From positions 1 through 64,000 of the forward strand of contig JANXAL010000080.1 in assembly GCA_025062325.1 (NCBI GenBank): a stretch of 64,000 bases of DNA, written 5' to 3'. Position 1 is the stretch's first letter. The number at the start of each line of letters is the position of its first letter. This DNA is from Roseiflexus sp. (lineage in GTDB: Bacteria; Chloroflexota; Chloroflexia; Chloroflexales; Roseiflexaceae). Of the stretch, positions 735 through 38,415 are shown piece after piece. The position numbers and the translations under genes are program-made. Under the pieces are notes generated by a model that had not been told where the DNA came from, did no database searches, and saw only the letters and a list, made by a program, of their open reading frames with translations.

Positions 735-2147
735 CTATGCCGACGATGCAACCTCTCCCTTCTTCACAATCGCATCGTACAGCACGTGGAATTCGTTCTC
801 GAACGCCTGCGTAATGGTCTGCGGATCGGGAACTAGCCCGGCGTCGGTGATCACGCCGAGCGTCACCTGACCGCAGTAACTCATGATGCTAACCCCCATT
901 CCCAGTCGCCCGGACTGCGGCACCCAGAACATCATGTTCCTGATTCGGTTGCCCGCCAGGTACAGTTGCTCTGTCGGACCGCGCACGTTCGTCATGACCG
1001 CAGTCGCCTTGCTGCCGAACAGGTTGACCGCCTGTTCCTCCACCTGCGCTGGCGTGCGCCCGAAGAAATTGAGCAACCCGTAGAAGACATACGCCTCAGG
1101 GGAGCGTTTGAGCGCTTCCATGCGCTGCTTGACTTCAGCCAGGCGCATCACCGGGCTCGGCGTACCGAGCGGCAACGAGAGGAAGACCAGCCCGAACTCA
1201 TTCCCCAGTTCGTGGGCGCGGGACGGTGGCCGCAGATCGACCGGGATGACGGCGCGGATCTCCAGACCATCAACGCTTGCGCCCCGTCCGATCAGGTAGT
1301 CGCGCAGCGCCCCTGCCACTGCCGCCAGCAATACGTCATTGACCTTCGCGCCCGCCGTCTTCCCGATCTGCTTCACCTGATCCAGCGGCGTCGGCGACGA
1401 CCAGGCGACCCGCTTCCGCACGCCCAGCGGACCTTTGAACAGCGTTTTCGCTTCGGTCGGCAGCAGCAGCACCCGGCTCAACGCCATTGCACCGCTGGCT
1501 GCCTGCATGGGCAACTCAAGCAGATGCTCGGGATGCCGCAGGAATTCCATCCCTTCGTGCACCAGTTCATCAGCCAGTTTGATCGAACCTTCGATAGTTG
1601 ATACAATCGGCTCTAGCAGCGGACCAAGCGAGTGTTTGTGGTTGGAATGCGACGTCGGAAGCTCGATCGGCGCATCGGGCGTTGTGTCCATCAGTCGATG
1701 CATGACCGTCTTCATCGCCGTGCCATCGCCGATGCAGTGGTGGAATCGCATAACCACAGCGGAACCGCCAAGGACATTCTCGACCAGGTGTACCTGCCAG
1801 AGCGGCTTGGTATAGTCGAGCGGGGTGCTCGCAAGGTCGCCGAGGAATTCCTGGAACGTCGCCATGTCGCCGGGAGACGGCAGCGCCACCCGATGGATAT
1901 GGGAATAAAGCGAAAAGTATGGATCAGGCTCCCATCGGGGAGCGCTTAACGGACTACGGTGATCGGTCACCCGCATGCGGAAACGTTCAAAAGATAACAA
2001 TCGCGATTCAAACGTCTTGTAGCAGCGCTCAACATCAATCGGCCCGTCGAGCAGCGCTACGCCGGTCACCATCATCAGATTGGTTGGATCGTCCATGTGC
2101 AGCCAGGCGCTGTCAACGGCGCTGAGAGGATGGGAAGCCTGAGCCAT
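735..2147 (-). CDS. Wax ester synthase/diacylglycerol acyltransferase (WS/DGAT)
   Basis: A 470-residue member of the WS/DGAT family, which joins acyl-CoA to fatty alcohols or diacylglycerol to make wax esters or triacylglycerol. The catalytic motif HHCIGDG is at residues 136-142, and the N-terminus carries the family-typical LSAVDSAWLHMDD. A second conserved block, the N-V-R-G-P of MTNVRGP, is present in the C-terminal domain. The start at 2147 was chosen over an ATG 51 bases upstream because GGAGGG stands just before it and because the family begins near this point. Wax esters are known from Chloroflexus and Roseiflexus mats. The acyl-reductase-like gene at 36038-38224 could supply the alcohol precursor; that link is inferred. 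Confidence 0.93.
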   Translation of the reverse strand: MAQASHPLSAVDSAWLHMDDPTNLMMVTGVALLDGPIDVERCYKTFESRLLSFERFRMRVTDHRSPLSAPRWEPDPYFSLYSHIHRVALPSPGDMATFQEFLGDLASTPLDYTKPLWQVHLVENVLGGSAVVMRFHHCIGDGTAMKTVMHRLMDTTPDAPIELPTSHSNHKHSLGPLLEPIVSTIEGSIKLADELVHEGMEFLRHPEHLLELPMQAASGAMALSRVLLLPTEAKTLFKGPLGVRKRVAWSSPTPLDQVKQIGKTAGAKVNDVLLAAVAGALRDYLIGRGASVDGLEIRAVIPVDLRPPSRAHELGNEFGLVFLSLPLGTPSPVMRLAEVKQRMEALKRSPEAYVFYGLLNFFGRTPAQVEEQAVNLFGSKATAVMTNVRGPTEQLYLAGNRIRNMMFWVPQSGRLGMGVSIMSYCGQVTLGVITDAGLVPDPQTITQAFENEFHVLYDAIVKKGEVASSA

Positions 2148-2305
2148 CGTCCGCCCTCCGTTCTTCACCAGAACCGCTTCGGTGCGCTCATCGTACACGA
2201 CTGCCGGTAGCAGCAGAGGTGAGAAGTTGCCACAGAGCGATAAAAGTTGACCATTCTTGAGTAGGAACGTTCTGCTCTAAGCGGCGCATACCTGTGAGGA
2301 GGCGT

Positions 2306-35616: not shown

Positions 35617-36033
35617 CTATCGCCGCAGCGTGCGCAGATATGCGATCAGGTCCGCCATCTGCTGGTCGCTCAGGGCGCTTCCCGGCATCACACCGATCTT
35701 CCCCTGGTTGGTCGTCCGAATGAAGGCGGCGACATTCTCCTCGGTGCGCGGCGCGCCGTTGGGCAGCATGCCGCCATAGTCAACGCCCGGCGGGTAGACT
35801 GGTCCTTCCGGTTGCAGCACGCCCGCCATCCCCGTTCCAACCCGAAACTCAGTGGTGGTGGCATGGCAGGCGCTGCACCCGGCGCGCTCGAAGACGATCT
35901 GGCCGCGCGCCGCATCGCCGACGATGGGTTCGCCAGCAGGCGCTTCAGGAGGCCTGCCGAGCGTATTCGCCGCCAGCACCACCACCCCCAGCGCCAGCGC
36001 CACGCCGATTGCCGTCCGAATCAAGGGTTGCAT
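35617..36033 (-). CDS. Membrane-anchored c-type cytochrome
   Basis: A 138-residue monoheme cytochrome c. An N-terminal hydrophobic helix (4-24) anchors or exports it, then CSACH (Cys53, Cys56, His57) binds heme covalently. The likely axial Met is in KIGVMPGSALSD, typical of small class I cytochromes. It would carry electrons on the outer face of the membrane. ATG 36033 starts 4 bases after the stop of the large acyl-reductase-like gene, so both are probably one transcript. The longer frame adds 12 unlikely residues. Confidence 0.92.
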   Translation of the reverse strand: MQPLIRTAIGVALALGVVVLAANTLGRPPEAPAGEPIVGDAARGQIVFERAGCSACHATTTEFRVGTGMAGVLQPEGPVYPPGVDYGGMLPNGAPRTEENVAAFIRTTNQGKIGVMPGSALSDQQMADLIAYLRTLRR

Positions 36034-36037
36034 TGCT

Positions 36038-38224
36038 CTACTGCACCCGCGCCTGCCGTCGCAGCGCAATCAGGCTCAGCGCAACCGCGCCGACGCCCGC
36101 CCATCCCCATGCGGCGGAGTGTTTGTTGCGCCGCGCGGCGCGCACCCCTTTCGCCATCTCCGGGATCGACTTCAACCGCTCCTTCGCCTCCGCCTTGCGC
36201 CGCGCGAACAATTCAGGATCGGCGCGCAGCTCCTCCGCCAGTTTGCGTTTGTGCATAATCTGCTCTTCGGTGATATATTCCCCGAAGGAGCGCAGCGGCG
36301 CGAGCCGATACCCATGCTTGCGGAAGAGGCGGTAAATCTCCTTGACCCGCTCGGGCGAAATGTTGCGCCCCAGCGTATAATCCTCGAAACGCCCCTCCAT
36401 CGCCAGCAGCGACGTCTCCGCCAGGCAGGCGTAGACTGTCTTGGGCGGCAGACCGATATCGTAGCCGATCTCGACATCGCCGGGGATGATCACCTCGCCG
36501 CTTTCAATCACCAGGATATCAGGGCGGAGCGCCGCTTCCGCCGCATTAATGTCCGGCGGGCGCGCAACGTCGCAGATGATGGCGCCCGGTTTGCACTCCG
36601 TCACGTCCAGCACCCGCTGACCGAACGCGGACGTGGCTGTGATGATCAGATCACACTCGCCTGCCAGACTGTTCGCGTGGGTCGAGATGACGACGCGCGC
36701 ACCCGGCGTTTCGCGCTCGATCAGGCGCTTCAGATCGATCAGTTTCTCCGGTTCGATCGAGACCAGCACGACATCCTTCGTCGCCTGCGCCGCCAACCGT
36801 GCGCAGGCGGAGCCAATCGATCCGGTTGCGCCGATGACCATAATTCTACCACGGCTCAGATCGCGATGCCCCATCATGCGGGCGGCGATCTTGGCCGTCT
36901 CCAGCGTCGCGGCGACGGTCAGGCTATTGCCGCTGGTGATGGCGATGTCGGCTTCATTGGCGACGGTGATGCCTGCATCGCCGACCACGCTGGTGAAGGC
37001 GCCCAGGCCCATGATGCGCGCGCCGAGCCGTTCGGCGAGGTGGGCCGCCTGGTTGAGCAGATTGTAGGTGAAACGCGGACTGTGCTTCATCATCTGGCGC
37101 GGCGTCGCGCCGAGCGAGATCAGGTACCCCTCGATGCGCTGCCCGGTGGCCAGCGAGCGTCCGCCGGTGATCTTGCCGACGTAGACCGGCGGCACGTAAG
37201 CGGCGGCGGCTTCAACAATCGCATCAGGAATGTAGCGCGTCCAGTAGAACGGCGGATACTCGTGAATGAATTTGACGCTCAACGGATGGATCACAAACGC
37301 GAACTTGTTGATGCCAGCCGCTTCCGGTTGCAGCGTCACGACGGCTGGCGCCCAATCCAGGTCCGCTAGCAGATCGAGGTATGTATCCTCAGTGAGCGGG
37401 GCCTGCGGATCAGGGCGTAGCGCCGCCAGCAGCGCCTCGATGGTCGCTGCGGAGTAACGGGCAATCTCGCCTTTGCCATGGAGGGATGGCATGAGCGTGA
37501 CCAGGGTTTCAACGCCGCGCGCGCGCAGGTCGGCGATATCGTCGTCGCTCGCCGCTTCGACAATGACCATCTTCCGCTCCAGCCGCTCAGGCGCAAACCG
37601 ACGAATGGCGGCGATATTCCCCGCCAGAATGTCCGCCCAGACGAAACTGCCTTTATGGTGCGGCGCACCGGTGATGCCAGCAATCGTCTCGAACGACGCT
37701 TCCTTGAGCGCCTCAAGCGTCGGCGCCGCCGCCTGATCGAGGGTTTGTGCGCTCCCGACGCCCGGTGCGTCGGGCAGACCGAAGAAAATTTGCGGATCGG
37801 CGAAGCGCAGCGCCGGACTGCGTCGCGCCAGCGCCTGCGCCAGCCCTTCGTGATTGACGCCGGGGACGAACAACACGCGCTTCTGGTTGAAGATCAGCGG
37901 ATGGGCGCGCTCAGCAAGAATGATGCCCCAGCGTTCAAGTTCCGGGCGCACGCCGCTGCCATCGACGACCGGCGTCACTCGCGCGGCGGCATGGAGATCG
38001 GCGCCAATCACATGACGCACCTGGGCGTTGCCTAGGCGCAGCACAGCGGGCATGCCTTCCAGCCCGATCGCGTCGACGACGCCGTCAAACTCGGCAATCA
38101 AGGCGCGGGCGCGGGCAATGTCGCCGCCGCACCCAATGCGGCGCATCTCAACTTCCTGGTTTAAAAAGGTGACTGGCGAGACCATGTCGCCTTCGCCAAG
38201 GTGAATGATAAGGACACGTTTCAT
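36038..38224 (-). CDS. Long acyl-ACP-reductase-like protein with N-terminal extension
   Basis: A 728-residue protein. The C-terminal part (about 330-640) closely matches cyanobacterial acyl-ACP reductase (AAR), which makes fatty aldehydes: GLGAFTSVV, the NADPH loop [20 protein letters not shown], and [14 protein letters not shown] with the catalytic Cys at position 600, followed by [13 protein letters not shown] itself is about 340 residues. The first 330 residues have no domain I recognise. The C-terminus ends in a hydrophobic helix ([18 protein letters not shown]) that could anchor it in the membrane. GAGGAGG precedes ATG 38224. A cytochrome c gene follows 4 bases later. Fatty aldehyde or alcohol supply for wax esters is inferred. 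Confidence 0.8.
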
Positions 38225-38415
38225 ACGTTTCCGCCTCCTCGCAGCGCCATACCCCATGGCGCCGACGACCGCACTTTGCTGTCAGGGTAGCACGGCGTCG
38301 CATCCTGGCGCGGAAACAAATGGCGACGCGGGGTTTACAACCTGCTACTGTTTGGGCCGTAGGGAATGGGGAGCAGGGAGGAGCGGGCGGCGAAATTCGT
38401 TGCCCCATTCGCTGA

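Follow-up and report, generated by a model that had tools for sequence, protein, structure and literature searches.

Which gene provides the fatty alcohol of wax esters in Roseiflexus-type phototrophs? Roseiflexus makes wax esters (PMC4400912, PMC12542760), these are its lipid biomarkers in hot-spring mats, and the papers that we found on these phototrophs do not assign a gene to the fatty-alcohol step. We addressed the question with a double-length gene of Roseiflexus sp. that lies in a window of 64,000 nucleotides (contig JANXAL010000080.1, positions 1 to 64,000). Its product probably reduces acyl thioesters (acyl-ACP or acyl-CoA) to provide the aldehyde for wax-ester synthesis by WS/DGAT, with its N-terminal half (N-half) as an inactive partner resembling acyl-ACP reductase (AAR). 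This reading was reached by computation, from the domain architecture, fold matches, conservation of a Cys and a loop, the overlap with WS/DGAT genes in relatives and the co-occurrence with them. The relevant features of the window are the following:

36038..38224, minus strand: gene of the double-length putative acyl-thioester reductase (728 aa; stop codon 36038-36040; start shared by homologues)
37316..38224, minus strand: N-half, residues 1-303 (no Pfam or NCBIfam model; best structural matches AAR and carmabin TAD; no Cys, no GxxGxxG)
36218..37315, minus strand: C-terminal half (C-half), residues 304-669, AAR/PigE-type thioester reductase domain
36812..36832, minus strand: dinucleotide-binding loop GATGSIG, residues 465-471 (assigned from sequence; core invariant in homologues)
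36425..36427, minus strand: codon of the putative catalytic Cys600 (aligned with SeAAR C294 and PigE C296)
36062..36112, minus strand: C-terminal hydrophobic segment, residues 705-721, predicted membrane anchor
35617..36033, minus strand: small c-type cytochrome gene (CSACH), 4 bases downstream of the reductase gene
735..2198, minus strand: WS/DGAT wax-ester synthase gene (PF03007, HHCIGDG motif), 34 kb from the reductase gene

The double-length gene, for which the initial annotation gave no strand, is real and reads from a conserved start Met at 38224 to 36041, followed by the stop codon. A longer alternative would begin with the ATG at 38257, a start that is less likely because the homologues begin at the same MK. 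The architecture is not a chance product, because at least 561 confirmed relatives of the double-length protein were found among genome contigs. The extra N-terminal part, previously put at about 330 residues, is present but shorter: we measured about 303 residues, because free-standing C-half proteins start at the equivalent of residue ~306. The terminal hydrophobic helix was also recovered (residues 705-721; mean Kyte-Doolittle 1.74), and 65 of the 77 long homologues have a comparable tail (mean Kyte-Doolittle of 1.0 or more), as against 0 of the 35 short (B-type) ones. The c-type cytochrome gene was found as described, with its ATG at 36033; we found this adjacency in just two genera, Roseiflexus and a sister genus, and for that reason a functional link between cytochrome and reductase was set aside.

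By sequence, the C-half is nearer to the thioester-reductase domain of PigE than to cyanobacterial AAR, as the homology search proposed with the initial annotation made clear. Residues 343-669 matched the PigE TR profile (NF053554) with 192 bits (E 1.6e-56) and the cyanobacterial AAR profile (TIGR04058) with 68 bits (E 8.5e-19), both below the curated NCBI family cut-offs of 850 bits for PigE, which in practice requires an aminotransferase domain, and 449.7 bits for AAR. The best matches of the C-half in a PDB sequence search were PigE (4ppm, 1.2e-32) and AAR (6jzq, 3e-15). The AlphaFold model of the full reductase had a mean pLDDT of 77, with low-confidence loops near the active site (residues 408-417 and 614-620). 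Foldseek placed AAR and the carmabin TAD domain on top for the C-half model, and VIA-align matched that predicted model (residues ~304-670) to AAR 6jzq with Z 31.6 (326 residues, rmsd 3.0) and to carmabin TAD with Z 31.3, the next matches being unrelated proteins (dehydrogenases) at Z 13.7.

Cys600, within a ten-residue segment singled out earlier, aligned with C294 of SeAAR and C296 of PigE, and both this Cys and the GATGSIG core were invariant in 23 aligned homologues. The AAR hallmarks that had been seen in the C-terminal half are thus borne out by the predicted fold and by the catalytic Cys, but membership in the cyanobacterial AAR family is not. Similarly, the ten-residue Gly-rich loop that had been assigned to NADPH is present, but NADPH use as such cannot be assumed, because among the NADPH-phosphate residues of SeAAR (R189, R193 and R314, corresponding to I490, K494 and R620 in the reductase) only R314 is kept as Arg. 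As a prediction from sequence and fold, the C-half looks like a working fatty-acyl reductase. The AAR fold and the catalytic Cys would also suit a cyanobacterial-type AAR feeding alkane synthesis; the score below the AAR equivalog cut-off speaks against this, as does ADO, which was found in 0 of 60 genomes in a search that detected the Synechococcus elongatus control. We rejected the alkane pathway on the ADO result and find this role for the protein hardly credible.

The N-half (residues 1-303) gave no significant match in Pfam, NCBIfam or PDB sequence searches. It has no dehydrogenase family match, no GxxGxxG loop and no conserved Cys, and its conserved polar residues are D88, D143, K218 and E263. 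Modelled alone from 29 sequences, it yielded a confident structure (pLDDT 92, pTM 0.91) for which VIA-align gave AAR as the best match (Z 12.8 over 250 residues, close to the Z at which the C-half matches unrelated dehydrogenases), followed by carmabin TAD (Z 12.7) and, as the next group, periplasmic binding proteins (9.5 or less). Both leading matches are remote (rmsd 4.7-4.8), and Foldseek, unlike VIA-align, ranked other folds first. The structure prediction corrects the description of this part as of unknown fold, in that AAR itself is the best structural match of the predicted model. An hhalign comparison of the N and C profiles was not significant (P 0.1, a value that shuffles reach), also in global mode and with rotations; by its weak register, the N-half position matching the catalytic Cys is Ala. 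Because of this lack of significant profile similarity, a duplication is a claim made from the structure models. We consider it rather likely, from those models, that the N-half is a strongly diverged AAR-fold copy without Cys or dinucleotide loop; the models suggest that the whole reductase is a tandem, half-degenerate AAR, a homology that the sequence profiles do not confirm.

In Anaerolineae and certain other Chloroflexota, a gene of ~300 codons encodes the N-half on its own. Among 35 unfused genomes with either half as a separate gene, 25 had both, 4 only the N gene and 6 only the C gene; this co-occurrence does not amount to many independent events, because most of these genomes belong to one family, and the Anaerolineae label of the separate-N families is one that we infer. 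When a tree was built for each half, a single branch divided the fused from the separate forms, which agrees with a single fusion or fission event. The possibility that standalone N genes adjoin standalone C genes was rejected, the two being unlinked in the Anaerolineae loci that we read. Standalone N genes (L172:7106-7972, L175:8093-8878, L176:5515-6297 and L179:6937-7839) often adjoin a gene for a MobA-like NTP transferase, an assignment Pfam-checked in L172 only. N-like proteins presumably carry the annotation "quinate 5-dehydrogenase", which we did not use.

Separate N and C genes in the same genomes might also be expected if the N-half were a second active site that takes aldehyde to alcohol, so that the reductase alone would make fatty alcohol, as AcrB and FarA do. 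The two-domain architecture recalls AcrB, and the four conserved polar residues could serve such a site. Yet the N-half has none of the features of a dehydrogenase that we looked for (GxxGxxG loop, conserved Cys, family match), and its best structural match is a thioester reductase; we regard a second active site as improbable. The N-half is a common bacterial domain for which Pfam and NCBIfam hold no model, and it may be a pseudo-enzyme partner of the reductase; if so, it would offer an instructive example of the way in which cells deal with reactive aldehydes.

Reductase matches were detected in 38 of the 60 relatives searched. The 80 relatives kept of the at least 561 include MAGs labelled Chloroflexota, Myxococcota, Acidobacteriota, Calditrichota and Pseudomonadota, labels that may be wrong. 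The double-length form is not unusual for the organism, being common in Chloroflexales and other Chloroflexota. Our literature search, which was weighted to freely accessible papers, returned none on a double-length reductase in Chloroflexota and no member with measured activity. Chloroflexales carry two paralogues, the tailed A-type (the window gene) and the tail-less B-type. The B-type paralogue of the same genome (G000:C140:6051-8075; L031:6051-8105) is 52% identical and has a NUDIX gene directly downstream; in Chloroflexaceae, an alpha/beta hydrolase gene takes the place of NUDIX downstream of the B-type. Finally, a gene of another Chloroflexota genome (G189; L190:3991-6567) fuses a PLP aminotransferase to an AAR/PigE-type reductase, which is the domain order of TamH.

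We then considered the pairing of reductase and WS/DGAT that the initial annotation had proposed from their presence in the same window, where the WS/DGAT gene does occur, although its distance of 34 kb counts against the pairing. In relatives the two genes are closer: WS/DGAT lies directly downstream of the A-type reductase, on the same strand, in g17 (G043, G049, G053, G396), g24 (G401), Viridilinea (L122) and L087, although G401 and L122 may be one and the same genome. At three loci (L010, L090 and L092) the two genes share four bases (ATGA) where the reductase stop meets the WS/DGAT start, and such an overlap is a usual sign of one operon. Among the genomes of the phylum sample (taken as the same 400 throughout, with A- and B-type assigned by score), WS/DGAT was present in 15 of the 18 genomes with the A-type vs 0 of the 19 with only the B-type (Fisher 9e-8, uncorrected for kinship). 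Gene overlap and co-occurrence together back the pairing.

The three A-type genomes without WS/DGAT are all Chloroploca-type. Only one genome among the 60 relatives (G014, 71% complete) has WS/DGAT but no A-type; it carries an extra HMGR that is class-I-like, the type to which FcrA belongs, an enzyme with demonstrated fatty acyl-CoA reductase activity (PMC11948995). The genus g16, taken as Chloroflexus, appears to have only the B-type reductase and no PF03007 match. Chloroflexus is reported to make wax esters, so the link between A-type and wax esters is not one-to-one. As a separate observation, a nitronate-monooxygenase-family gene is convergent with the tailed reductase in a Chloroploca-type genome that has no WS/DGAT (L042:5901-7352).

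Elsewhere in Chloroflexota, the neighbourhood of the fused relatives is a lipid setting, not a WS/DGAT one: the reductase is followed by SDR, PF01553 acyltransferase and SCP2 genes, and genes for Fe-ADH, patatin and a PHB regulator lie close by. Fatty aldehyde or fatty alcohol made by the C-half might instead be destined for a lipid other than wax (ether lipids or other esters), or serve in aldehyde signalling or repair, the adjacency to WS/DGAT being a secondary recruitment. Such a role would agree with the SDR, PlsC-type acyltransferase, SCP2 and Fe-ADH genes beside these relatives, with no WS/DGAT in the loci examined, and with the Chloroploca-type genomes that hold the tailed paralogue and lack WS/DGAT; moreover, fatty-alcohol-forming reductases beside PlsC-like genes serve ether lipids (PMC11948995). 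In the window's own order, however, the tailed paralogue tracks WS/DGAT, with the four-base overlap in some relatives, and Roseiflexus does make wax esters; we judge another lipid role unlikely, though it deserves weight. In Anaerolineae-type genomes, a recurrent block of fused reductase, SDR, PF01553 acyltransferase and SCP2 genes with a PHB regulator opposite (L111:8215-11008, L116:8233-11056, L104:8312-11310) looks like an undescribed lipid gene cluster.

The wax alcohol of Roseiflexus could also come from another enzyme (AcrB, FcrA or an Acr1-type SDR), the double-length reductase being unrelated to wax. The genome contains several SDR and NAD_binding_4-like genes, among which an Acr1-type SDR is possible by sequence. 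A search of the Roseiflexus genome for the alternatives AcrB, FcrA and LuxC found none of them. In particular, the AcrB profile (PRK07201 / NF005539, cut-off 549 bits) gave no match over the cut-off in any of 60 genomes including Roseiflexus (0/60), LuxC was absent from the Roseiflexus genome, and so was an FcrA-type class-I HMGR, the single HMGR being class II by TIGR00532. These results and the operon linkage of reductase and WS/DGAT in relatives argue against a different source of the alcohol, which we take to be quite improbable. Three Chloroflexales genomes hold a class-I-like HMGR below the HMGR cut-off, possibly an FcrA-type fatty acyl-CoA reductase (L211:1501-2610, L212:1501-2613 and L210:1501-2607).

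Returning to the acyl-thioester reductase that we favour, the mechanism would be that of AAR, in which an acyl chain attached to the Cys is reduced to aldehyde by NADPH (PMC7089970). We infer its substrate, cofactor and product, and likewise its membrane anchoring, the role of the N-half and the alcohol-making enzyme. In the C-half, the acyl chain would be transferred to Cys600, forming a thioester from which a nicotinamide cofactor in the GATGSIG loop would release it as aldehyde; a second reduction would convert the fatty aldehyde to fatty alcohol for WS/DGAT, while the C-terminal segment would hold the reductase at the membrane. The N-half would be a catalytically dead AAR-fold copy partnering the active half, fused to it in Roseiflexus and encoded by a separate gene in Anaerolineae; it might help to form a pseudo-dimer, dock the carrier protein or guard the product. 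What stands of the earlier reading is the thioester reductase fold of the C-half and the pairing with WS/DGAT, but not the cyanobacterial AAR membership or the N-half of unknown fold.

A 2025 survey of WS/DGAT-bearing bacteria, which looked for three alcohol-forming reductases, reported FarA in 1%, AcrB in 31% and FcrA in 26% (PMC11948995), so in a part of these bacteria only. Beside FarA, AcrB, Acr1 and FcrA, the protein might represent one more class of wax-ester acyl reductase that has yet to be described, a tandem AAR-fold protein with one inactive and one active half; in many Chloroflexota the halves are fused, in Anaerolineae they are two genes. We hold this broader proposal tentatively, at slightly less than even weight. 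In any case, the double-length family gives the search for the fatty-alcohol gene of Roseiflexus-type phototrophs a concrete candidate that experiments can test.

We finally compared the reductase with known systems. PigE and TamH, of the prodigiosin and tambjamine pathways, have thioester-reductase activity (PMC8341465, PMC9594044) and provide the closest profile, a homologous TR domain with the same Cys (PigE C296) and likewise a two-domain protein, but their partner domain is a PLP aminotransferase where the reductase has its ~303-aa N-half, and the score of the C-half is far below the PigE cut-off. Cyanobacterial AAR shares with the C-half the fold, the Cys (C294), the Gly-rich loop and the equivalent of R314; the reductase differs from it in profile score, double length, membrane tail, the absence of an ADO partner and I490/K494 in place of R189/R193. 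Carmabin TAD (PDB 9e4s/9e4u/9e50) matches the predicted structures of both halves, whereas it lies within an assembly-line protein annotated for amino-acid adenylation, and its crystals hold NADH/NAD. FarA, AcrB, Acr1 and FcrA resemble the reductase in the step proposed for it, which turns an acyl thioester into aldehyde or alcohol to be used by WS/DGAT (PMC11948995). They differ in type, Acr1 being SDR-type and FcrA HMGR-type, with FarA and AcrB searched with other profiles (PMC11948995), whereas the Roseiflexus reductase combines a predicted AAR fold with a putative catalytic Cys.
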